A stretch of DNA of 27,989 nt, taken from IMG/VR virus record IMGVR_UViG_3300030107_006634, positions 1 to 27,989 of that record. One strand, 5' to 3'. Below the pieces are notes generated by a model. It ran no database searches, was not told the origin of the DNA, and saw only the letters and a program-made list of their open reading frames with translations. Source of the stretch: a virus. Numbering within the stretch: position 1 is the stretch's first letter; the number at the start of each line of letters is the position of its first letter. Made by a program: the position numbers and the translations under genes. Positions 707 through 23,191 of the stretch are shown here, in pieces.

Positions 707-1246
707 TTATCTACTAGATTCTATCCCACCAACGCCCTGAACTATAACTTTGTCGTCAATAGGTATATCTTCTGGTATAAGTTGGCAATAGCAGTTCTCT
801 TTACAGACTGAAAACCCACTTGCAGGTAGGCCAGCAGCTTGCCAGTTTTCCCAAGTGTCGATTTGACCAATTCTAGCAGCGCAATCACCACATATTTTAG
901 GGCTTCCGACAGAAACCCAGCGCATCATTACGTTATCCCCATAAATATTGTCTTGTCCGACCCTGAAACCTTGCATAACACCTCCAACAATTCCACGCTT
1001 AATGGTATTTCTGAACTCTCCAAAAATTCTTCCTCCAGTCCTAAGATCATCGGACAGAATTTGGATAATTGCTCTATCTCCGACTCCAGACCCTCTGAGT
1101 ACTGCAATTTCTCGTTCAATTCTTGAAGCAAATACATCAATTCCATAAGCAAGTCCGAGTGCGACCCAGAGAAGGGTGTCTTCGTCTTGTTGTTCGATTT
1201 CTTCGGCATCTAAAAATTCCTCCAGGGTTTCGTATTGTTCAGCCAT
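707..1246 (-). CDS. MuF-like phage head morphogenesis (minor head) protein
   Basis: A 179-residue protein whose C-terminal part has the cysteine arrangement of the Mu gpF / SPP1 gp7 minor head family: C119-x2-C122, then C148, C152 and C154 in the context RWVSVGSPKICGDC and KENCYCQ. The N-terminal half is acidic then helical. Family members sit inside the procapsid near the portal and are thought to help DNA ejection or head assembly. It is the last gene of the minus-strand head cluster. Its ATG overlaps the TAA of the preceding gene as TAATG (1246-1248) with no clear ribosome binding site, so translation is probably coupled. It is shorter than many MuF proteins, consistent with a form carrying only the C-terminal domain. 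Confidence 0.8.
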   Translation of the reverse strand: MAEQYETLEEFLDAEEIEQQDEDTLLWVALGLAYGIDVFASRIEREIAVLRGSGVGDRAIIQILSDDLRTGGRIFGEFRNTIKRGIVGGVMQGFRVGQDNIYGDNVMMRWVSVGSPKICGDCAARIGQIDTWENWQAAGLPASGFSVCKENCYCQLIPEDIPIDDKVIVQGVGGIESSR

Positions 1247-1743
1247 TATTTTTTCATAACCTTATTTAGTAGCTTTACTGTCTCAGATTCAATTTTTTTT
1301 ATTTCTTTTTCATCTGCTGGGCTAGATTCTGTGCCAACTATAAATGGTCTAGCTTTTACTGTTTTTTTACTACCAAAACCAATATTCTTAGCTGGCGTAG
1401 TCCAACCCCCAAGATGATGATTTAGTCCATAAGATTTCATTTCAATTCCTTCTTTTTTTGCTTTTATGGATTTTTTTAAATTACCAGTATAATCTAATGG
1501 CTTATTTTCTAAGTTTGGCCTTTTCCCAGAATTATGTCCAGTAAATGAAGATAATCCTAAACTTCTAGCCTCTTTAGTCCTATCTGTAAGCTCAGGCAAC
1601 CTACCTTTCTCAATTTTATCTATAGTCGCCTTAGTAAAGTCTTTTATAATTTCAGTGTTATTAGATTGCATAACTTCTTGAAATTTATCCTTTAATTTTG
1701 CAAAACTAAAATTAGACTTTACTTCAAATGATCGCTTCGCCAA
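1246..1743 (-). CDS. Mu gpG / HK97 gp10-like virion morphogenesis protein
   Basis: A 165-residue protein with the hallmark of the phage virion morphogenesis / gp10 family: LDYTGNLKKSI (83-93), YGLNHHLGG (105-113) and KARPFI (130-135), matching the family pattern L-x-x-T-G-x-L-x-x-S-I ... H-x-x-G ... ARPF. These proteins act at the head-tail junction or in tail completion. The start is a TTG at 1743 (LAKRSF in DNA, Met in protein), supported by AGGAGAA about 5-8 nt upstream. It overlaps the small gene before it by 20 nt. An early position near portal and MuF is normal in Mu-like gene orders. Confidence 0.8.
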   Translation of the reverse strand: MAKRSFEVKSNFSFAKLKDKFQEVMQSNNTEIIKDFTKATIDKIEKGRLPELTDRTKEARSLGLSSFTGHNSGKRPNLENKPLDYTGNLKKSIKAKKEGIEMKSYGLNHHLGGWTTPAKNIGFGSKKTVKARPFIVGTESSPADEKEIKKIESETVKLLNKVMKK

Positions 1744-1957
1744 ATTCTTCTCCTAGTTTTCGTGCTTTTTTAATTCTATCTATATTCTGAAGTAATATTT
1801 TGTTAGCTATCTTCTCAGCGAACGCTTTTGGGTCTACTATAACTTCGCTAATATCTCCATCAATGTCAATATCTATTTTATGAAGGTCTTTGATTTTGCT
1901 GACGTATTCTCTCAAAAATTGATTGTTGCTCGTTTTCTTGCTTGTTTGCTCTGACAA
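1724..1957 (-). CDS. Small protein overlapping the portal 3' end; unknown function
   Basis: A 77-residue acidic, helical protein without recognisable motifs. The only reasonable start is a TTG at 1957, 9 nt after a full AGGAGG (complement of 1967-1972), which lies inside the portal coding sequence. The gene therefore shares about 80 nt with the last codons of portal in a different frame and 20 nt with the gpG-like gene after it. It fills an otherwise empty gap in a tightly packed operon, which favours a real gene. The position between portal and gpG-like genes suggests a connector or head accessory role, but this is only context. No in-frame ATG is present. Confidence 0.6.
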   Translation of the reverse strand: MSEQTSKKTSNNQFLREYVSKIKDLHKIDIDIDGDISEVIVDPKAFAEKIANKILLQNIDRIKKARKLGEEFGEAII

Positions 1958-3182
1958 TTTCTCTCGCCTCCTCTATAGATAAATCTTTGTTTTGTTTTAC
2001 TAGTAGCTCTGGCTGTGTAGTAAGATTATTTTGTAGTGCGTGATTATCAAGTAAAATCTGGTCTTGTACTGTCTTAGGATATTCAGGCTCAATAAAATCA
2101 AGTTTTAGTTCATTTGGCAAATTAATACCATTATAACCTGCAATCGCACGCTCAACGTGATAAAGTTCATGCTCATACATTCTCCAAAGCTCTATATCAT
2201 CCTGATAATCTTCAAATCGCTCTAAGTCTTTAATTTTAAGTGCAATACCTGATGGAACTTCACCTCCATCTTGAGCAAACTGAACATACAAGTGATTGTT
2301 TTGTGCTACAAGGTCTACCTGGAACTTAACACTTTCTATTACAGACTGAATATCTCCCTGTGGAGCAGCAATACCAAAAGTAGAACCTTCAGGAAGGTCA
2401 AGTATTTGATCACTACCAGTTCTCTTCATACCTTTATCACTATATACTCCAGTAACAAATGGCTGCCCAAACATCTGGAATCTAAGTCCAAGCTGTAGCT
2501 CAGTCATTGTAATATTAACTTGCTCATTACAATCAACAATATCATTAGCCCCTTCTACGAAGAAAGAGTCTAGTTGATTTTCTCTATGTGTAAATACAAA
2601 AGGAATAACTCCATATCCATGCTCATATTCATTCATTATATTACCATCTTCATCATAATGCGCATACATATTAGCATCCCAATACGCATATTCTAGTTTT
2701 GTAGTATCATAAACTTCATTCACGTTATGTAATATGGGATAAGTAATTGCAGTAGGTATAAATGGATTATCCTCCATGTGAACATCAAAGTAATATACTG
2801 GTCTATAGTCAAAATGTGGCATATCCCCATCTCTAAAGATAACTTGCGTGGCTACAGTTCCAAGAAGTCTTGTCATTTTTTCGATATGCTTCATTCTAGC
2901 ATCTTTTTTTATAGTCAGCTCATCGTATTTTTTCCCCACGTTACGATTTGCACCTACATTGTAAATCCTTGACATTTTATTTATAAAACGCTTAGTAAAA
3001 TTTGCATTATATAAAGGAATTTCTCTAAACGCATCAGCATCAAAATAATCATCAATATACTTTTGGGTTTCTGTTCCTGAATAATAATCTATAAGCCTAT
3101 ATATCTCTTGCCTTCTTGCTTGTGCGTGAGAAAGCTTTAAATCCCTTATGGATTCTTGTATAATTTGTTCAACTGTAGTCAT
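1878..3182 (-). CDS. Phage portal protein
   Basis: A 434-residue protein directly after the large terminase, with features of SPP1/HK97-type portals: a helical N-terminus, a mixed central wing (RPVYYFDVHMEDNPFIPTAI, about 126-145) and the conserved EVPSGIALK stretch near residue 310 followed by long helices (DDIELWRMYEHELYHVERAI, the stem/crown region). Portals form the dodecameric ring at one capsid vertex through which DNA is packaged and ejected and on which the terminase docks. ATG 3182 overlaps the terminase TAA as TAATG, with GAGGA about 7 nt upstream. The glutamine-rich C-terminus (RIRQQNQRPS) overlaps the next gene. Length is normal. Confidence 0.85.
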   Translation of the reverse strand: MTTVEQIIQESIRDLKLSHAQARRQEIYRLIDYYSGTETQKYIDDYFDADAFREIPLYNANFTKRFINKMSRIYNVGANRNVGKKYDELTIKKDARMKHIEKMTRLLGTVATQVIFRDGDMPHFDYRPVYYFDVHMEDNPFIPTAITYPILHNVNEVYDTTKLEYAYWDANMYAHYDEDGNIMNEYEHGYGVIPFVFTHRENQLDSFFVEGANDIVDCNEQVNITMTELQLGLRFQMFGQPFVTGVYSDKGMKRTGSDQILDLPEGSTFGIAAPQGDIQSVIESVKFQVDLVAQNNHLYVQFAQDGGEVPSGIALKIKDLERFEDYQDDIELWRMYEHELYHVERAIAGYNGINLPNELKLDFIEPEYPKTVQDQILLDNHALQNNLTTQPELLVKQNKDLSIEEAREIVRANKQENEQQSIFERIRQQNQRPS

Positions 3183-4507
3183 TATCTATTCCTCATTATT
3201 AATTTATTTCGTTTGATTGGAAATTGGTTTATAAAAAAATACCTAAGCATATCACAACCATGGTCGTGAAAACCATCTTTTAGTGGGTCAGGCTTTAAGT
3301 CTTTATTCTCAATAGCTTCTGGATAGCGATAGTTTTCAAGATCTTGAGCCAGTCCCACGCATTTATTATCCAGATGCAAATATCTATTATTATTAGCATT
3401 TTCAATAAATCCCCTAACGTGAGTAATTCCAGAGGCAATATTTCTTGAAGTTTTATCTCTTACAGACCTTACGTTGATACCATGTCTCCTAAAAATTTCT
3501 ATATCTCCCAACCCTGACTGTCCTTGAGCTTGCATACCTGCTGGGTCGCCATAATAAGCTCTAACAGGATATCCTTTTTGTTCAATTTTAGCAATAAGTT
3601 CATCTGTTTTTATATTTTTCTCGTGTATAATCTCGTCAATAACATTTATATGCCATTCCCCATTTATTCTATGAGTTTGAAACCAGCCCACTGCTGGCAT
3701 CCTATATCCAAAGTCTATAGAGCAATACGTTGGGAAATTAGGATTATAAGGAAAGTGACCAACGTCTTTATTCCTATCAAAAGGATAAACTTTTCCTTCA
3801 AACGATGTAAATGCTGACCCAAACTCTTGGTCAAACATTTCCTTAGACATATTCCTTTTCCTTTCAACAAGGAAAGGGTCATCTATTCCTTCAGGAAACG
3901 CATATTGATTTTCCCACGATGGAGCTTGATGCGATTCCCATAATTTATCAGATTGACCTAATAAATAAAGGTCATATATCCAATTAAATCCTTCTGGGGT
4001 AGTAATAAAAATACATTTACTATCTTTCTTATCTGCTAGGGTAGGAGATAAATACATCTCCCATATTTTTCTTTTAACCTTAGCTGCCTCGTCAATAACA
4101 AGTAGATCAAGACCAGCACCCACTAAAGAATCTGGGTTATCTGCTGACTTTGCTTCTACTACGCTACCCCACTTGAAGCGTATATATCGTTCTTTCTCTG
4201 AGGCTTTTTCTATATCATTAGCTTTACCAACGACCATTCGCTTCCAAACTTCTCTAAACATAATATCTGCTTTATCGTAGGATAATCCAACAAGCCATAT
4301 TCGCTTGTCAGGTTGGGATGCGTAATACGTTGCCTCCATAGCTGCTGCTGTTGATTTTCCAAACCTACGACCACATACCATGACAAAAAACCTTGCTTCT
4401 TCCTTCGATGGAAAGTGCAATTTAATTTGACCATTATGAGGACTATACCCCATAAAGTCAAACCATTTATCCTTAAATTTTTTTAGATTGTTATTAAATG
4501 TTTGCAT
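3182..4507 (-). CDS. terL: Terminase large subunit (ATPase and nuclease)
   Basis: A 441-residue packaging motor. Walker A is GRRFGKST (46-53), Walker B LDLLVIDE (133-140) with catalytic Glu140, and the coupling motif TTP is at 169-171. The C-terminal RNase H-like nuclease carries its acidic residues in SIDFG (D265), YGDPAG (D321) and HDHGCD (D415/D419). It pumps DNA into the procapsid through the portal and cuts the concatemer. ATG 4507 is the furthest possible start because TAA lies directly upstream. The ribosome binding site is weak (GGG). It is the first gene of the minus-strand cluster, divergent from scaffold and capsid. No small terminase subunit is recognisable in this window. Confidence 0.95.
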   Translation of the reverse strand: MQTFNNNLKKFKDKWFDFMGYSPHNGQIKLHFPSKEEARFFVMVCGRRFGKSTAAAMEATYYASQPDKRIWLVGLSYDKADIMFREVWKRMVVGKANDIEKASEKERYIRFKWGSVVEAKSADNPDSLVGAGLDLLVIDEAAKVKRKIWEMYLSPTLADKKDSKCIFITTPEGFNWIYDLYLLGQSDKLWESHQAPSWENQYAFPEGIDDPFLVERKRNMSKEMFDQEFGSAFTSFEGKVYPFDRNKDVGHFPYNPNFPTYCSIDFGYRMPAVGWFQTHRINGEWHINVIDEIIHEKNIKTDELIAKIEQKGYPVRAYYGDPAGMQAQGQSGLGDIEIFRRHGINVRSVRDKTSRNIASGITHVRGFIENANNNRYLHLDNKCVGLAQDLENYRYPEAIENKDLKPDPLKDGFHDHGCDMLRYFFINQFPIKRNKLIMRNR

Positions 4508-13949: not shown

Positions 13950-15194
13950 ATGAATAAATTATTGGGTAACATACAAGGATGGATAGAAGGAGGTTATGCT
14001 GGAAACCATCTACAGAATGATCTTTCTAGTTCTGCTGAATTTGCAAAAACATATTCTGGAAGAGAATTTTCAGTATTCGTAGCAGAAGATGGTAGTTCAG
14101 GTAACGCTAAGATTGGAACATTTAACACAACCAATTCAGATTTTCAGCAATTTGACGTAGAAGGGATTACTCTACCAACATTCACTCCAGACCAAGAGTT
14201 TGAAATGCGTTCTGGAACTGGTAGAGTTGCACAGTTTGAATCTATGTATAATAATAGTAAAGGAGTTGTAACTGAATTTACTTTATCTGGAAGGCTTGAC
14301 CTTAATACTCTTGCGATATTAATGCAAAATGTAACTGCAACAGCAGTTACAACAGATGAATCTGCTGAAGCTGATGCTCAAAATGTAGTGTTAATTTCAG
14401 GTGGTGGTGCTTACTCACCTACTCACTTAGAGCATGATGCTGCTGTTGCTGCTGATGCTTTTAACAAAACATTATCTGTATATTTTAAAGCGCCAGAAGA
14501 AGCGAACTCTTATCAGTTTACTGGGTGCGTATGTACCTCTTTCCAGATCTCAGGAGACATGGGGACTGCGAGTGGAAGATTTGATTATAGTGCAACATTT
14601 CAAACAGGCTACGCTCCTACGAAGGGGTCAAGAACTATGTCTGGATATGGAACTATAGGTAGTAACGTATTTATGACAGATTTGTCAAAAAGATACATGA
14701 ATATGATAAACGTAGATTCTTCTGGGAATGATTATTATAAAATGACACCTATTTTTAATTCAATGTCTTTTACTATTGAATCTCCAAGCGTTATGTTGGG
14801 TTCTCAAGGGACAAATAATGAGCCAGAGGTTATAGCAAGAGCAGTACCTGAGCTTAATATCACATTTGGTGGGTCTTTAAAATATGATACAGATACAGAT
14901 AAATTGCTTGAGGCTCACAGAGATGCAGGAGAAGGGTCTTTCATACAGTTCTTTGGAGCAACACATGATCCTGATTCAAGCGCAGCAATTTCAACTAGTG
15001 CAATATTCCCACAAGACCTTGCCTTTGAAGATAACGATGCGCATGGCTTAGGGATACTATTCCATAAAGCTAAACTAATTAGTGCTGCTGTTGGAAGTGG
15101 AGATGTTGCAACGCTTGACTTTGAAGCAAAAGTAGTTGATGCAGGCTCAACTTACGAAGTTCTACAAGTTGCAGTTGGTGATACTAATACATAA
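13950..15194 (+). CDS. Major tail (tube) protein candidate
   Basis: A 414-residue beta-rich protein with a strong ribosome binding site (AAAGGAGA before ATG 13950). Typical tube-protein features are FDVEGITLPTFTPDQEFEM near the N-terminus and the repeated strands EFTLSGRLDLNTLAILMQN, SFQISGDMGTASGRFDYSAT and LNITFGGSLKYDTDTD. Position before the chaperone pair and tape measure is the expected place for the tail tube gene in long-tailed phages. It is larger than most tube proteins, so an added decoration domain is possible. No sheath-like protein precedes it, which supports a non-contractile tail. Confidence 0.7.
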   Translation: MNKLLGNIQGWIEGGYAGNHLQNDLSSSAEFAKTYSGREFSVFVAEDGSSGNAKIGTFNTTNSDFQQFDVEGITLPTFTPDQEFEMRSGTGRVAQFESMYNNSKGVVTEFTLSGRLDLNTLAILMQNVTATAVTTDESAEADAQNVVLISGGGAYSPTHLEHDAAVAADAFNKTLSVYFKAPEEANSYQFTGCVCTSFQISGDMGTASGRFDYSATFQTGYAPTKGSRTMSGYGTIGSNVFMTDLSKRYMNMINVDSSGNDYYKMTPIFNSMSFTIESPSVMLGSQGTNNEPEVIARAVPELNITFGGSLKYDTDTDKLLEAHRDAGEGSFIQFFGATHDPDSSAAISTSAIFPQDLAFEDNDAHGLGILFHKAKLISAAVGSGDVATLDFEAKVVDAGSTYEVLQVAVGDTNT

Positions 15195-15404: not shown

Positions 15405-15686
15405 ATGGAATTTAAAACTAAATCTGGTAAAAAGGTTGTATTTAAAGATGTATCTATTGACGAGCAAGATATGCTCTTAGATTCTGTTGAGTATAATTAT
15501 GATGAGAATGGCAATGTAGGTGCATTTAAAATGCTTAATACTACAATAACAAAGTGGCTTAGAACTGGATTAAAAGGAGATACTTCTGATAAATTCTTAA
15601 AAACACTTTCTATAGAAGATAGAACAGAAATATTTTTAGGATTACAGAAATATATAATGGTGGGGGAAGAGAAAGCCTCCAAGTAG
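15405..15686 (+). CDS. Tail assembly chaperone, upstream ORF (gpG-like)
   Basis: A 93-residue protein starting MEFKTKSGKKVVFKDVS, after GAGGG. It stands between the tail tube and tape measure genes, the fixed position of the gpG/gpGT tail chaperones in long-tailed phages. These bind the tape measure protein and recruit tube subunits, and are normally made as a short form and a -1 frameshifted long form. The helical C-terminal half (KMLNTTITKWLRTGLKGD, RTEIFLGLQKYIM) fits. A slippery sequence and stem-loop near its 3' end (15662-15719) link it to the next ORF. Only short runs of sequence resemble known chaperones, so position and the frameshift signal carry the call. Confidence 0.75.
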   Translation: MEFKTKSGKKVVFKDVSIDEQDMLLDSVEYNYDENGNVGAFKMLNTTITKWLRTGLKGDTSDKFLKTLSIEDRTEIFLGLQKYIMVGEEKASK

Positions 15687-15719
15687 AACTCAATGTAATG
15701 GTTGAGCAGTGTGGAGGCT
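15662..15719 (+). promoter_or_regulatory. Candidate programmed -1 ribosomal frameshift signal
   Basis: The zero-frame codons GTG GGG GAA contain G-GGG-GAA at 15662-15668. After a 5-nt spacer comes a nested stem-loop: AGCCTCCA (15674-15681) pairs with TGGAGGCT (15712-15719), and inside it CTCAA (15689-15693) pairs with TTGAG (15702-15706). The -1 frame has no stop from 15623 to 16108, so a slip would fuse the two chaperone ORFs. P-site pairing is kept exactly on slipping; A-site GAA to GGA is imperfect. The stem covers the zero-frame UAG and puts ATG 15698 in the loop. A weaker alternative is A-TTT-TTA at 15632-15638. Confidence 0.65.
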
Positions 15720-16108
15720 GCAAATTTCATAGTTATCCTTACGAGGCGCAACTACCTGTTATGGTTAATGGCGAGTATGAGACTCGAACATTTACTTGCG
15801 ATGAAGATGTTTGGGATGTTGTTGATTTAATTATTGAAGAAACTAAGGAAATGAGCTTGAAACAAAATAAAGATTTTAGTATAGCTAGTTCTGTAAAATC
15901 TCAACTCCCATTCTTTGCTTGCAATGATATCGTATATGACAAGCAGTGCCAAAAAGATATTCAAAGATATATATACTCAGAAAACTTTGGGATACAGCCA
16001 TATAGTGGATCTTATGGTGACCAACCATGTAGATGGGTGCAAAAATCTTTTGTAATTAAAAAAGCATTAAATAAAGTTCAACAAAAGGCAATAAAAGATG
16101 TCAAATAA
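15665..16108 (+). CDS. Tail assembly chaperone, frameshift extension (gpT-like)
   Basis: This open frame lies in the -1 frame relative to the preceding gene and reaches 16108. It may be read as a fusion (about 233 residues in total) after frameshifting near 15665, or from ATG 15698 as a free 136-residue protein (MVEQCGGCKFHSYPYEAQLP). No Shine-Dalgarno sequence precedes ATG 15698, which favours fusion. The part has seven cysteines, including CGGC (5-8 from that ATG), C35, and later cysteines near FACNDIVYDKQC and QPCRW, so it may bind metal or form a knot. Cysteine-rich gpT extensions are unusual. It overlaps the tape measure start by 11 nt. Confidence 0.6.
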   Translation, partial: GRESLQVELNVMVEQCGGCKFHSYPYEAQLPVMVNGEYETRTFTCDEDVWDVVDLIIEETKEMSLKQNKDFSIASSVKSQLPFFACNDIVYDKQCQKDIQRYIYSENFGIQPYSGSYGDQPCRWVQKSFVIKKALNKVQQKAIKDVK

Positions 16109-18197
16109 TACCATCACAGTAAAGTTTAAACCTGAAGGCGATAAGGCTTTAAAGGCTGCAATAAATTCTTTAGCAGCAGCTCAAAAAAAATACGAACAAG
16201 GCGTACATCTTGTAGAGCAAAGAGTTTCTAGTAATACGAAAACCCATAGGTCACACTCAAAAATTCTTGATAGTTTAAAAGGTAAATTTGCTGTTCTAAG
16301 AAACAGTCTTCTTTTATACGCTTTTGGATATGGGATATTAAAGAAAAGTATAGGTGGGGTAATTTCTTCTTATGCAGAACAGCAACTAGCAGAAAAAAAG
16401 CTAGAGCAAGCCCTAGGAAGAACTAGTAGTGCATTGTTAAGCCACGCATCTGCATTGCAAGGAGTGACTACATTTGGAGATGAAACGATTATATCTGCTC
16501 AAGCATTACTTGCTGCGTTTGTTGATGACGAGCAACAATTAAAAAGAGCAACTATAGCGACATTAGATTTAGCAGCAGCTAAGGGAATGGACTTAGCATC
16601 AGCAGCAGACCTTGTAGGAAAAACATTAGGGTCGTCAACTAATTCTCTGTCAAGATATGGAATTGAGGTTGAAGGGGCTGTTGGTTCTACGCAAAGATTA
16701 GATACTCTTACTAGAAATATATCAAATACTTTTGGTGGTCAAGCTAAAGCTCAGGCAGAAACTTTATCTGGAAGTATACAGCAAATGCAAAATTCAATGG
16801 GAGATGCAGCAGAACTTATGGGGCAAGTTCTTGAGCCTGCAATGCTTGTGGTGGTCGACTTACTTAGTTCAGCAGCAGAAGCTGCTATATCATTTATGAG
16901 AGGATTAACTGAGACTCCTTTAGAATCAACAATAAGAGAACTTGAAGCTTTAAATATTGAAGCAGAGTCTTTAATGCAATTAAAAAATATACAATTAAAT
17001 AAAGAAATAAGAATTTTAAACGCAGAGATAGAAAAAGTTAATACTGAAATGTTAACTCAGGAAGATATACAAACTAGGCTGAACAAAATAACATCAGAAA
17101 GAAATGATGTGTTAACTGAGCTTGGCAAAAAACAAGCAGAAGTGAGCGAAGATGCTTTGAGTGATGTAAAAATGCAAGTAGCTAGTGTCCAAGATAGGCA
17201 CATGAGAGAAAGAGAGCTAATGGAAGATGGTAATTCTACAAGGGCAGATTTCGCAGCTTCAGAAAAAAGAGAGAGAGAAACAATAGCAGCTATATATGAA
17301 AATTTTTACAAAAACCGAGGCGATGCTGAGGCTACTAGGCTTCTTGAGCTAGACAAAGAAGAAGAAAAATTACTAGAAATTGCCTCGATATTAGCTCAAA
17401 GATTAGGATTAGAGGCTCAAATAACTGGCCTAAACGATAGAGGAACTGGATCTGGAGGTGCTGACAGTAGGACATCTCAAGAAATAGAATTAAACTCAAA
17501 ACTAAGAGAGTCTCTTATAGAACTAAGGGCTGAAAGAGGCGAAATCAGCAGAGTTAAAGAAGAAGAGCTTTTAATGGATTCTCAAATTTTAGCGATGCAG
17601 CAACTTGTTCAACAAGGACACAAAGATCAAATAGATTTAACTATCTTAGAAAATGAAATGGAGTTAAAATCAATTCAAATAAAGAAACAAAAACAAAAAG
17701 TTCAAGCAGATGTAACAAAGCAAATAATATCAGATACTATAAAGTTAGGGCAGTTGTTGGCTAAAGATGAAAAAGATCAAAAAAAGCTTGCCTTTGCTGG
17801 TGCGATGGTTGATGTTGTCGCTGCTTCTTTAGCTACTTTTAGGAAAGTTTCAGAGATAATGCTACCTCCAGCACCTCAAATTGCTGCTTTAGCACAGTTT
17901 GGCATAGGATCAGCAATAGCATTTAAAATGAATGAATTTGAACAAGGTGGACTTGTAGGTGGTAGAAGACATAGCCAAGGAGGCACAATTATAGAGGCAG
18001 AGCGTGGAGAGTATGTTATGAGCCGAAATGCTGTAGATTCTATTGGTGTTGATAATTTAGATGCTATGAATCAAGGTGGCGCTGGGACATCAATCGTAAT
18101 AAACAATCCTATAATTTCTTCTGAATTTGTAGAAACAGAATTACCTGAGCTAATTGCAGAGGCAGTTAGAAAAGGTGCAGACTTTGGGATGTCATGA
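16098..18197 (+). CDS. Tape measure protein
   Basis: A 699-residue protein following the chaperones. The N-terminal third has a hydrophobic stretch (FAVLRNSLLLYAFGYGILKK, about 63-85) and the SAADLVGKTLGSSTNSLSRY pattern of tape measure proteins. Long helical coiled-coil segments (about 280-360 and 470-560) follow. The C-terminal part has a hydrophobic region (FAGAMVDVVAASLATFRK) and the common phage motif FEQGGLVGGRRHSQGG ... AERGEYVMSRNAVDSIG (about 612-650). It sets tail length and is ejected with DNA; at roughly 0.15 nm per residue the tail would be near 105 nm. The start overlaps the chaperone end by 11 nt, and its stop overlaps the next ATG as ATGA. Confidence 0.88.
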   Translation: MSNNTITVKFKPEGDKALKAAINSLAAAQKKYEQGVHLVEQRVSSNTKTHRSHSKILDSLKGKFAVLRNSLLLYAFGYGILKKSIGGVISSYAEQQLAEKKLEQALGRTSSALLSHASALQGVTTFGDETIISAQALLAAFVDDEQQLKRATIATLDLAAAKGMDLASAADLVGKTLGSSTNSLSRYGIEVEGAVGSTQRLDTLTRNISNTFGGQAKAQAETLSGSIQQMQNSMGDAAELMGQVLEPAMLVVVDLLSSAAEAAISFMRGLTETPLESTIRELEALNIEAESLMQLKNIQLNKEIRILNAEIEKVNTEMLTQEDIQTRLNKITSERNDVLTELGKKQAEVSEDALSDVKMQVASVQDRHMRERELMEDGNSTRADFAASEKRERETIAAIYENFYKNRGDAEATRLLELDKEEEKLLEIASILAQRLGLEAQITGLNDRGTGSGGADSRTSQEIELNSKLRESLIELRAERGEISRVKEEELLMDSQILAMQQLVQQGHKDQIDLTILENEMELKSIQIKKQKQKVQADVTKQIISDTIKLGQLLAKDEKDQKKLAFAGAMVDVVAASLATFRKVSEIMLPPAPQIAALAQFGIGSAIAFKMNEFEQGGLVGGRRHSQGGTIIEAERGEYVMSRNAVDSIGVDNLDAMNQGGAGTSIVINNPIISSEFVETELPELIAEAVRKGADFGMS

Positions 18198-21100
18198 TAG
18201 ATGTAACTAATAAAATGAGAAGGGATTTAATTGACGATGTAAGCGCATTTGATATTATGGCTGTAATATCTTCTGCGACTGAAACTTTTTACATATCAAC
18301 AAGAGAACAATATTTTGAAGGTAATTTTTACGAAGACTACGACCTCAATATAGGGAGTCTAAAAGAATCAATAAATTTCAAAACAAAAAAAATAAAAATA
18401 TCTTCAACAAGCGTAACACTAAATAACTTTGAAAAGGATGGACTTAGATTTACAGATAGGGCGAAACATGGATTACTCAATGCAACTGTAGATATTTATT
18501 TAAAGACAGCAACCTGTGATAACCTATCAGATTGTGCTAAGATAGCTATGCTAAAAGTAGCTAGGTTTAATCAAGACCCACAAAAAGTAACATTGAAATG
18601 TGAGGAATACTTGTCAAATGCACTACAAACTGAACTTCCTAGAAAAGAAACCACCTTATTTTCTGAAGATAACGATTCAAATTACTTAAATGCTAAAACT
18701 CAAGAGATATATAACAACCAAAGAGTGCCAATCTTATATGGTCATTTAGAAGAAGCGCCAGCAATATCATATATGCCTATTGGTACAGGGCAAATAAGAA
18801 TAATCCCAGATTTAGTTGCAGGTGTTGGAATAAAAGATATGCCAAACCCTGCTATCTCAACTGACGTTGGTATAGAAACAGATAGTAATTTTGGTGGAGT
18901 AAAAGTTACTCAGTTGATAGATCAAGATGTTTTAACTATAAAACTAGGAGATGCTGGGGCTAGAGTATACAAGCATATCCCAAGGCAAGCCAATGATAAA
19001 ATTTTAAGGAGTCCATTTGATAGGCAATTTGATGTAAGAAATGAATCTGAGCTTAATTTTGTTGACTTTTACACAGAAAGAATTGATGCGAAAGACGTTT
19101 CTCCATTTTTAGAGCAAGGCGCTTTACTCGTGGGAGAGCTATCAAAATTAACAAATGCTGTAGCACATCATAATGTATATGCTGTTGATGCGTATCGTGA
19201 TACTGCAAATGAATACTTTAGATTTAATCTTAACAACAATATAAATAATTTAGATTTCTCTAATTCAGATTTATTTACAGAAGTATGCGCCAAGTGGGGT
19301 GATGTTTCAAATTTTAATGGCAGTTCACCTAACAATATCCCTTATTCGCAAAGAATAGTCGGAGGAGAAGAGGTGTCAGTCCACCTTGGTGGTTCTGGAG
19401 CTGGATCAGAAGGTGACCATTATCTACAAAGCAATCCTTGTATAGATTTTCAGTTCGAGGAAATGAAATGCGATTCTGATATTTTTAAAGACAACAAAGG
19501 AATAGAAGCTCCATCTGATTACAATTTAATTACTTTTGCACAAGTGCATCATGGGTGGGATGACGCTCAGTATCAAGGTTATTATGGATATCAGCCTAAA
19601 TTAGCTTGGTGTTTTTTCCCTGGAAAAGCAGACCAAACTTTCGGTAATGCCCTCTCTTTTAAAACTAGCTTCACAGAAGACGAGAAAGACGAATATTTTC
19701 AAAGTGAAAACCCTCTAGGGTTTCATCCAAACGTATTAAATGGTGCTGTAGCAGACTTTGAATTTGATCCAGAAGAATATAGTGAAGAAGAAATTTTAGA
19801 AAAAAATACTTATGAAGGGCTAAACGATAAAGCTGGAACGTCTTCTAATGGATACTATTATAAACAACAAAAAGTTCCATCAAGAATAGCGCCAATGCTA
19901 TTAATGTCAACACGAAATTATGTTGGGACTACTTACATATCTAATACGACCTATGATGCGTATCCAATAATTGATTACAGACATTGCTTTAATTATCCAT
20001 TAAATGATAGCAACGATAAAGATATAAACCAATGGAGGAATAGGAGTGGATGGGTTTCTTCTTATTCTATGCACGATACAAGATCTGTGTTGCTTAATTT
20101 TGTTCCTTTCAGTGGCAGCACTACTGACGATGATGCTTTTAATGACATTAACTATATAGATATGGATTTTTATGCAGAATTTGCAGGTATGCTAATTAGA
20201 AGAACTTGGTTTCAAAAAGATGCTTTTAATAAAAAGTTTTTCTTGAACGCTAAAGGAAGATACGACAACTATCTTCCTAATCCAGAAAATAGAATATGGA
20301 GGGTAGATAATGCTATTCTTACTGCAATATCTAAAAATAAAAGACCATCTGGAGATGAGGGAGATTTTGGAAATAGTACTACAGCTATAACACAAAATGA
20401 TTCACTACTAAGGTATGTATTAGACTACATCGGCAATAAAAAACTTAAATATAGAGAACAAGGGGATTATTCTTCGGAGATAATGTTAAAATTATTCTTC
20501 GAGCCAGATGGTAGCGACTCATTGGCAGATTCTCTGTTAGAAGGGGAAATTGACTACGTTTTTGATTTAGAGCTAAATCAATTTACAAGCACGATACAAA
20601 TAGGAGTTCTTGCTGCATACCCATTTCAAATAAGTGGAACTTTGTTTAGGCAAAATAGCCCTTATTATGAACAGTATGGGACATATAACGATTTAACTGA
20701 AGATGTTGATGTCCAATGTAAAAATATTAGTTTAGTATATTGCAGGAAAAATATAGATGTTAATGGTAATGTTACAAGTATAGATGAAGTCGAAGAAATT
20801 GTTGATTTCACAGAAGAAGTCCCAGATAATGATGAGTTTACTAGATTTAGGTTAAAAAGCGAAGATATAAGCCCAGCAAAAAAATTAATAACAATTCCAA
20901 AGAGTATAGCTAAAGATTTACTTGTAAGAGAATTGCAAGTACCATCAAGCCAATTTATAACAAAAAATACAAATGATTCTCAATATAGTTTAAGTTTTTC
21001 CTTGCATGAGCCACAGAGAACAGTAGATGTTTTACAGAAAATATGTGAAAATTCTAATTCTTACTATAAGACTTCTATAAAAAATTCAGTCCCTACTTTT

Positions 21101-23191
21101 ATAGGGATTACAGATAATTATATTAGCGCAGATAAGACTATATATGTTGACTATATGGAGTCTTATAAATTCAGCAAAACTAAAATAGAAGATTTGGCGA
21201 TTAAATGTAGGGTGAAATATGGCTATGATTACATTGCAGAAGAGTATAAAAATATTACTGAAGAAAGAATAGTTCCGAATATAGAAAATTACAAAAATTA
21301 CTATGGATTGACTGACAGCCAAATAGATGGAGAAGATTTTTTATTAGAGCATGAAGCTCCATATATACAAGATTCACAGACAGCGCTTCTATTGAGAAAT
21401 CATTTGCATGAGCTACACAAGAACCAACATACTATTGTAGATTTTAAATTAAACTTATCTCAAGGATTTGACTTAGAGGTAGGAGATATCGTTGATTTTA
21501 AAACTATAGGAAGTGATGAGTATAAATCATTCTTTTCTCCCTATGGAGTAGACATTATGGCTGTCACAGGTCTTCCTATGTTACCAGATATTATAGGAGA
21601 CCAACAAGCAGTTCTTCCATACTTTATGCTAACAGACGTAACAAAAACAATGAATGGTGTATCTGTTAGGGCAATTCAAATGCACGACTTATCAGGAGCA
21701 GTTGCAGTCCCTGGAGAGCAAGACGAACCTGATGCTCCACAAGTTTTAATTGGCGATGTTGATAATGATGGAGAGGCTTATACTATCAATGACTTCCGAT
21801 TATTATACGATTTTGTTATGGAGGATGGGGTTTTAGACGAACAACAACTTTTAAATGCAGATATAGCTGGTGAAGGTGATGGGAATGTAGATGTTTTAGA
21901 TCTTATGGATTTTGTTGCTAATGTAAAGAATGACATGGGAGATGCTTTTCTTCCTGGAGATGCAAATCTTGATGGGGTTGTTACTGAGGAAGACATAGAA
22001 TTAGTTCAAAGCTATATAGATAATCCAAACACTTCTGAACTTACAATGGCAGGCTTTATAAATGCAGATATGGATGAAAACTTTATAATTAATGAGGTTG
22101 ATATAGAAGCGATTGATGCGCTACTCCCTCCAGATGAAGCCGAAGCTACAGGTCAACTTTTAATTGATACTACAAATGACAATGGATATGGAGCTATAAC
22201 TTTAGGATATACTAATAATGAGATTGCAATTACTTTTTTGAAAGCTGTTAATATTGATGCAGGCGACTATGAGTTGGAAGATTTTTTGCTAGACCTAGAA
22301 AATAACGACCTTACTTTGGTTGGCACTAATATAACTTTTCAGCCACTTTTTACAGGTGAATTAGATTATACCAATGGAGACATTATTAATATCACATACC
22401 CTTGGTTAGAAGCAGCAGGAGATTATACTATAAATGCTATAGAATACAACACTTCATTTGGTGGACTTTATACCTTTCGTTTAGATGCAAGTGGGATAGA
22501 TAGTACAGGCTTAACAGATTTGGGTACTACCCAAGGTATTGGTGGAACAAATGACGTTAATGTAAAAATATATGGAACTCCAGAGACAATATTTGTCCCA
22601 GACCCAGATGGAGATGGATATGTTGAGCTTTTATCTACTAGGCATTATTATGAGCAAAATGGTTATGATAGCTATATGCCAGCTTCTTATACATATTCAA
22701 GTGGAGCGCAACTTCAAGGTTTGGATAATAGTGAAATGATAATTACAGGTAATAATAATACAATTCTTCCAAATGCTACATTTCCTGAACTTAGAGGTGA
22801 AGCTTCTGACTTAATAGTAAATGGTGCGCAGACATATTATAGATTAAATTTTACCTTTAATGAAGAGCGTGCAAATCTGACTAGCCAAACTCTTACCGAT
22901 GATGAATTGACTATAATAAATAATTGGCTGCAATTAAATGGATGTTACGCTAGGCTCAGTGGTTCTAATGCTAATTTCATGAGGTTTAATTGGGGTACTC
23001 TTCTAAATCCAGATGGTGGAGATACAGAATATGATTGGTTTCCAGATTTTAATGTAGGGTTACTTCAATTATATCCTTCAGAAGCAGGAGGATTCAATTT
23101 AACAATAAACGCTGATAATCTTCAATTAGTGCCTTCAATTAGAGATTTTCTTATTTTAACTATAGAATATCCACTGGATTACAATGAGTAA
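18194..23191 (+). CDS. Giant tail-tip protein with dockerin-like calcium-binding repeats
   Basis: A 1665-residue protein, by far the largest in the window, placed directly after the tape measure (ATGA overlap), where distal-tail, hub and tip functions are encoded. The first 1180 residues include hub-like segments (LHEPQRTVDVLQKICENS, LEVGDIVDFKTIGSDEYK) typical of tail-associated proteins of marine siphoviruses. Residues about 1187-1313 hold four dockerin-type calcium loops (D1188, D1223, D1256 and D1292 as first residues). The remaining 350 residues are a beta-rich part with a PDPDGDGYVE acidic loop, probably a receptor-binding or carbohydrate-contacting domain. The distal tail role is inferred from order; the calcium loops are seen directly. 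No peptidase or lysozyme motif was found. Confidence 0.75.
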   Translation: MIDVTNKMRRDLIDDVSAFDIMAVISSATETFYISTREQYFEGNFYEDYDLNIGSLKESINFKTKKIKISSTSVTLNNFEKDGLRFTDRAKHGLLNATVDIYLKTATCDNLSDCAKIAMLKVARFNQDPQKVTLKCEEYLSNALQTELPRKETTLFSEDNDSNYLNAKTQEIYNNQRVPILYGHLEEAPAISYMPIGTGQIRIIPDLVAGVGIKDMPNPAISTDVGIETDSNFGGVKVTQLIDQDVLTIKLGDAGARVYKHIPRQANDKILRSPFDRQFDVRNESELNFVDFYTERIDAKDVSPFLEQGALLVGELSKLTNAVAHHNVYAVDAYRDTANEYFRFNLNNNINNLDFSNSDLFTEVCAKWGDVSNFNGSSPNNIPYSQRIVGGEEVSVHLGGSGAGSEGDHYLQSNPCIDFQFEEMKCDSDIFKDNKGIEAPSDYNLITFAQVHHGWDDAQYQGYYGYQPKLAWCFFPGKADQTFGNALSFKTSFTEDEKDEYFQSENPLGFHPNVLNGAVADFEFDPEEYSEEEILEKNTYEGLNDKAGTSSNGYYYKQQKVPSRIAPMLLMSTRNYVGTTYISNTTYDAYPIIDYRHCFNYPLNDSNDKDINQWRNRSGWVSSYSMHDTRSVLLNFVPFSGSTTDDDAFNDINYIDMDFYAEFAGMLIRRTWFQKDAFNKKFFLNAKGRYDNYLPNPENRIWRVDNAILTAISKNKRPSGDEGDFGNSTTAITQNDSLLRYVLDYIGNKKLKYREQGDYSSEIMLKLFFEPDGSDSLADSLLEGEIDYVFDLELNQFTSTIQIGVLAAYPFQISGTLFRQNSPYYEQYGTYNDLTEDVDVQCKNISLVYCRKNIDVNGNVTSIDEVEEIVDFTEEVPDNDEFTRFRLKSEDISPAKKLITIPKSIAKDLLVRELQVPSSQFITKNTNDSQYSLSFSLHEPQRTVDVLQKICENSNSYYKTSIKNSVPTFIGITDNYISADKTIYVDYMESYKFSKTKIEDLAIKCRVKYGYDYIAEEYKNITEERIVPNIENYKNYYGLTDSQIDGEDFLLEHEAPYIQDSQTALLLRNHLHELHKNQHTIVDFKLNLSQGFDLEVGDIVDFKTIGSDEYKSFFSPYGVDIMAVTGLPMLPDIIGDQQAVLPYFMLTDVTKTMNGVSVRAIQMHDLSGAVAVPGEQDEPDAPQVLIGDVDNDGEAYTINDFRLLYDFVMEDGVLDEQQLLNADIAGEGDGNVDVLDLMDFVANVKNDMGDAFLPGDANLDGVVTEEDIELVQSYIDNPNTSELTMAGFINADMDENFIINEVDIEAIDALLPPDEAEATGQLLIDTTNDNGYGAITLGYTNNEIAITFLKAVNIDAGDYELEDFLLDLENNDLTLVGTNITFQPLFTGELDYTNGDIINITYPWLEAAGDYTINAIEYNTSFGGLYTFRLDASGIDSTGLTDLGTTQGIGGTNDVNVKIYGTPETIFVPDPDGDGYVELLSTRHYYEQNGYDSYMPASYTYSSGAQLQGLDNSEMIITGNNNTILPNATFPELRGEASDLIVNGAQTYYRLNFTFNEERANLTSQTLTDDELTIINNWLQLNGCYARLSGSNANFMRFNWGTLLNPDGGDTEYDWFPDFNVGLLQLYPSEAGGFNLTINADNLQLVPSIRDFLILTIEYPLDYNE
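21752..22132 (+). other. Dockerin-like domain region (four F-hand loops) within the tail-tip gene
   Basis: Encoded loops: GDVDNDGEAYTINDF (residue 1187 on; one extra residue), ADIAGEGDGNVDVLDL (1222 on; expanded), GDANLDGVVTEEDI (1255 on; D1256, N1258, D1260, G1261, D1267, a perfect type I F-hand) and ADMDENFIINEVDI (1291 on; D, D, N, D in order). Each is followed by a short helix (LLYDFV, MDFVANV, LVQSYI, EAIDALL), so they make two paired modules of the type I dockerin plan. Dockerins bind calcium and usually dock onto cohesin partners. No cohesin is recognisable in the window. Confidence 0.75.

Follow-up and report, generated by a model that had tools for sequence, protein, structure and literature searches.

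The DNA at 15405-16108 very likely carries a genuine -1 ribosomal frameshift site which, judging from sequence comparison, would yield a tail assembly chaperone in two lengths, short and long. It lies in a window (the whole stretch of DNA that was analysed, 27,989 bases) from an uncultured virus record, in which terminase, major head and tape measure genes are recognisable by profile. With high confidence, we regard the two reading frames as a chaperone pair of the lambda G/GT type, whose fusion would arise through a -1 slip at 15662-15668 together with a downstream stem. From comparison and modelling, we obtained conservation of the frame, the heptamer and the stem, the absence of an alternative start, and a fold match for ORF1. 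The features of the region are:

13950..15194, plus strand: probable major tail protein, 414 aa, named from position and gene order only
15405..15686, plus strand: ORF1, putative gpG-like tail assembly chaperone, 93 aa, ending at TAG 15684-15686 without a shift
15662..15668, plus strand: slippery heptamer G_GGG_GAA, in ORF1 phase GTG GGG GAA
15668..16108, plus strand: -1 frame extension (ORF2), putative T-like domain, 146 aa plus stop, -1 in all relatives
15669..15673, plus strand: 5-nt spacer from heptamer to stem
15674..15681, plus strand: 5' arm of the outer, putatively stimulatory stem, AGCCTCCA
15689..15706, plus strand: inner hairpin (15689-15694 paired with 15701-15706), without conservation in the family
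15712..15719, plus strand: 3' arm of the outer stem, TGGAGGCT
16098..18197, plus strand: tape measure protein (phrog_27166, tail length tape measure, E 4e-12)

In the 0 frame, ORF1 ends with GTG GGG GAA GAG AAA GCC TCC AAG TAG. The -1 frame, which is the reading frame of ORF2, is open through 15623-16108, just as a first reading made from the letters alone (the sequence-only reading) had described it, with no stop from 15623. Directly downstream comes the tape measure gene, whose ATG lies within the last bases of ORF2. On the other side, family searches with the protein at 13950-15194, the presumed major tail protein, returned no match; the chaperone pair is therefore placed between the major tail and tape measure genes by a PHROG match downstream and by position only upstream. 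The tail assembly chaperones G/GT of lambda are likewise encoded by overlapping ORFs in a -1 relationship, ahead of the tape measure gene (PMC5009743). As in lambda, the two ORFs here overlap with the second in the -1 frame, they lie just upstream of the tape measure gene, the slip site is near the end of the first ORF, and both a short and a fused product are expected. However, the slip heptamer of lambda is GGGAAAG, while here it is GGGGGAA and is followed 5 nt downstream by a conserved strong stem, and the proteins are dissimilar in sequence. Taken together, gene order, the -1 overlap and the predicted fold of ORF1 are best read as those of a lambda G/GT-like pair.

Relatives were collected by scanning IMG/VR with ORF1 and ORF2 as queries (loci L001-L255), and 136 distinct ORF1/ORF2 pairs, window included, were retained after repeats were removed; these sequences come from related metagenomic contigs and are not independent trials. 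Every distinct pair (136 of 136) has ORF2 in the -1 frame relative to ORF1. The sequence-only reading had suggested comparing related genomes for the heptamer, and a slippery heptamer was found in phase in 136 of 136 pairs: GGGGGAA in 113, GGGGGAG in 21 and the canonical GGGAAAC in 2. The codon preceding GGG is TTG, GTG, CTG, ATG, ACG, GAG or GGG, so that the residue differs among pairs (Leu, Val, Met, Thr, Glu or Gly) and the final base is always G. In the genes of the window, codons ending in G make up 12% and GGG accounts for 15% of Gly codons; against these values, a preceding codon that always ends in G indicates that the G run appears to be kept for itself. The string GGGGGAR occurs 3 times in the window (2.0 expected), thus the string alone means little, and the case is made by comparison. 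As an in-frame NNG_GGG_GAR, it is missing from all of the 16 further plus-strand genes tested, whose 6141 codons would be expected to hold about 0.5.

Five consecutive G, present in every case, could also be read as a site of RNA polymerase slippage, in which a G is gained or lost and the fused frame is translated from the altered mRNA. This is very improbable. Polymerase slippage is independent of codon phase, yet the run stands in the phase NNG GGG GAR in 134 pairs, and in the two pairs with the other phase (L060:2993-3001 and L064:2993-3001; GGG GGA AAC) further bases complete the canonical heptamer G_GGA_AAC. Moreover, five bases is short for polymerase slippage, and a 3' stem at 5-nt spacing is the usual stimulator of a ribosomal shift.

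ORF2 might instead be a separate gene, translated from ATG 15698 by translational coupling or re-initiation. The position of this ATG, 12 nt past the ORF1 stop TAG 15684-15686, suits such a start, and an ATG or TTG is present near 15698 in 15 of 42 sampled relatives. However, from the heptamer to +45 in the -1 frame, ATG is absent in 118 of 136 pairs, and in 89 of 136 GTG and TTG are missing as well. A Shine-Dalgarno match of at least 4 nt ahead of such a start codon was found in none of the 42 divergent relatives sampled, while most of the window's head and tail genes have such a match. The residues RESLQVELNV ahead of ATG 15698 are conserved, and in the AlphaFold2 model of ORF2 (mean pLDDT 93.8) they account for the first helix (helix 2-11, upstream of ATG 15698). 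A separate start would also leave the -1 phase and the heptamer with no need for conservation. We therefore consider independent initiation highly unlikely, and both it and polymerase slippage were rejected on the evidence of start codons and Shine-Dalgarno matches, phase, heptamer and stem.

The sequence-only reading had noted that ATG 15698 has no ribosome binding site, and no Shine-Dalgarno match is present there. It had also named in advance what would speak against a frameshift, namely relatives with a -1-frame stop between 15623 and 15698 and with a conserved ribosome binding site for this ATG. No -1-frame stop separates the heptamer from ORF2 in any relative, and the counts above (0 of 42 with a Shine-Dalgarno near 15698, ATG absent in 118 of 136) answer the second point, so that this check speaks for the frameshift. 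Thirty-four pairs have their ORF1 stop at the heptamer or shortly behind it, and changes in the -1-frame codons that follow fall on the third position in 1789 cases, on the first in 1033 and on the second in 357. In the same stretch, single differences are synonymous in 1198 cases and non-synonymous in 142 (summed over non-independent pairs). Since the changes are mostly third-position and synonymous, the stretch ahead of ATG 15698 is translated in the -1 frame. The T-like domain would then lack a start of its own and appears to be reached only by a -1 frameshift from the G-like ORF.

In order to locate the shift, stops that lie flush with the heptamer are informative. A -1-frame stop abuts the 5' end of the heptamer in L034, L059 and L142, in which the -1 frame opens at the first base of the heptamer. 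In 32 of the 136 pairs, the ORF1 stop is directly behind the heptamer; for example, L036 reads TTG GGG GAA TAG. This subgroup (GGG GAR TAG, with the stop at bases 8-10 from the heptamer start) consists of L036, L029, L062, L065 and 28 others, and in it termination and frameshifting would take place at a single site. The alignment indicates that the slip site is homologous across members, and if it is homologous in all of them, flush stops on both sides mean that the shift must fall on the seven bases of the heptamer. GGGGGAA is poorly understood as a slip site, and the family offers a natural experiment on it: a stop behind it in a subgroup, a stop in front of it in a few members and the canonical GGGAAAC in one lineage localise the shift to seven bases without experiment.

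On GGGG, re-pairing in the P site is perfect, while in the A site the change from GAA to GGA needs a central G-U pair. Because tRNA-Glu in the A site re-pairs with GGA only through this central G-U, G_GGG_GAA departs from the canonical X_XXY_YYZ rule. The sequence-only reading had called the A-site re-pairing imperfect and atypical; this feature is real, and it is already documented for tail chaperones (PMC10885494). If both tRNAs slip in tandem, the junction is expected to be KYIMVGE|RESLQ. A variant of this ribosomal shift differs in one step: tRNA-Gly in the P site would slip alone (GGG to GGG) before GAA is decoded, in which case A-site re-pairing is not needed and the junction is KYIMVGG|RESLQ. 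Neither route yields the GEE/GRESLQ junction that had been proposed for mass spectrometry. Perfect pairing in the P site beside imperfect pairing in the A site speaks for the variant. However, the codon after GGG is GAA or GAG in all 134 pairs, which fits a role of tRNA-Glu in the A site, though conserved Gly-Glu coding could explain it too, and the two canonical members (G_GGA_AAC) permit tandem slippage. On balance, we think slippage of the P-site tRNA alone rather doubtful. A similarly tentative idea concerns the G_GGG_GAR_TAG subgroup: the flush stop could be part of the stimulus, with termination and frameshifting in competition, and the heptamer could be retained across wide divergence through a route without full A-site re-pairing, but we rate this as unlikely. 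Such a route may be P-site Gly slippage or the central G-U pair made by tRNA-Glu.

The heptamer (15662-15668), the 5-nt spacer and the 8-bp stem (15674-15681 with 15712-15719) had all been placed correctly by the sequence-only reading. The outer stem encloses a 30-nt loop. The folding check which that reading had proposed gave -22.7 kcal/mol for 15660-15730 (z -2.93; 4 of 200 shuffles as stable), and the mean folding z is -2.6 over 42 divergent sequences. In these 42 sequences, 92.6% of the outer-stem cells are paired, compared with 44-54% in slid controls, and none of 500 shuffles reaches this value. Compensatory changes on both arms, for which relatives were also to be examined, are present in 16 cells (GC to CG in 11, AU to GC in 4, CG to UA in 1). 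A stem is kept even in the alignment outliers, 12 bp long in L060 and L064 and, with another sequence, 13 bp long in L065; L108 is the only relative with no clear equivalent of the outer stem. A 5-nt spacer, an 8-bp stem and covariation are in line with a stimulatory structure about 5-9 nt downstream of a slip site. The second stem inside the loop does exist in the window (5 bp plus one G-U, 15689-15694 with 15701-15706), but only 56% of its cells are paired in the family, so it is not conserved and does not stand as part of the signal.

For protein identity, the AlphaFold2 model of ORF1 (pLDDT 88.6) aligns with YqbN (3KLU) over 77 residues (VIA-align Z 5.1, 3.9 A, 9% identity), and this was the sole chain among 241 with a VIA-align Z of at least 2. 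Foldseek with the same model gave no significant match, thus the YqbN support is modest but specific. YqbN has been described as a phage tail assembly chaperone (PMC9603447), and the model gives modest support for a tail assembly chaperone fold of the gp13/YqbN kind in ORF1. The earlier assignment of the pair to tail chaperones agrees with this fold match and with the tape measure gene that follows. ORF1 resembles the YqbN and HK97 gp13 chaperones (PMC9603447) in its predicted fold, as aligned to YqbN; it differs in having 9% identity and no sequence-level family match, and HK97 gp13 was absent from the search list.

Profile searches of ORF1 and ORF2 against Pfam and PHROGs gave no confident match to named chaperone families. 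One of 42 ORF2 relatives has a weak match to phrog_9001, tail assembly chaperone (E 0.0046), and the Pfam matches of ORF1 relatives to MRP-S27 and DUF2283 look like chance and were discarded. Relatives of ORF2 are encoded in some 300 IMG/VR stretches; none were found in bacterial and archaeal genomes, and tblastn of ORF1 and ORF2 against cultured phages had 0 matches in 50,697 records. A PDB sequence search gave nothing meaningful. The ORF2 fold has no match of note in the PDB and no characterised structural relative, and it has three significant matches in BFVD, all nameless (best A0A516LCZ5, 47% identity).

The ORF2 extension contains six cysteines by sequence, not seven as had been counted. 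Early in the T-like domain, at ORF2 residues 15-21 (15710-15730), there is a nearly invariant CGGC motif, and the family has two more near-invariant cysteines, one of which is Ser in the window. These cysteines could serve in metal binding or in disulfide bonds. The DNA that encodes the CGGC motif contains the 3' arm of the stem.

In the proposed mechanism, most ribosomes would finish ORF1 and release the 93-aa gpG-like product. A minority would pause at the stem (15674-15719) with GGG GAA of 15662-15668 in the P and A sites, shift by one base in the 5' direction and continue in the -1 frame as far as 16108. The resulting fusion protein would have about 234 aa, of which 88 come from ORF1 and 146 from the extension. 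In lambda, G binds the tape measure protein and T binds the tail tube protein, at a ratio of about 30:1. By analogy, the short form may act as a coat on the tape measure protein, and the fusion, as the scarcer product, may recruit the tail tube protein.

Frameshifts of this kind are already known, since GGGGGAA ('fivetwo') is the heptamer in about a thousand annotated SEA-PHAGES actinophage frameshifts, nearly all of them in tail chaperones, for which the G-U re-pairing explanation has also been offered (PRFect, PMC10885494), and a GGGGGAA frameshift in tail assembly genes was predicted for gp14A of corynephage phi16 (PMC5506516). The locus shares the GGGGGAA heptamer with the 'fivetwo' type, and the heptamer stands in phase with the 0 frame where two putative tail chaperone ORFs overlap. 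Unlike those high-GC actinophages, the family here consists of uncultured phages, uses GAG as well as GAA, and has its shift pinned by comparison. It is also similar to phi16 gp14A in combining GGGGGAA with a downstream RNA structure in tail assembly genes; in contrast to the pseudoknot and internal Shine-Dalgarno predicted there, a simple stem with no obvious upstream Shine-Dalgarno is found here. The lambda-like chaperone frameshift is thereby extended to a sizeable family of long-tailed phages that are uncultured. Pfam and PHROGs recognise neither protein, so the finding allows both genes to be annotated.

Some other observations were made in the window. Rfam and tRNA scans of it found nothing. 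The structural module is arranged divergently: the minus strand (707-4507) carries the terminase gene and its neighbours, presumed to be portal and neck genes, and the plus strand (4560-24756) carries those for head and tail. After the tape measure gene, a 1665-aa protein (18194-23191, plus strand) contains several stretches, DVDNDG, DANLDG and DMDENF among them, which resemble calcium-binding dockerin or EF-hand loops.
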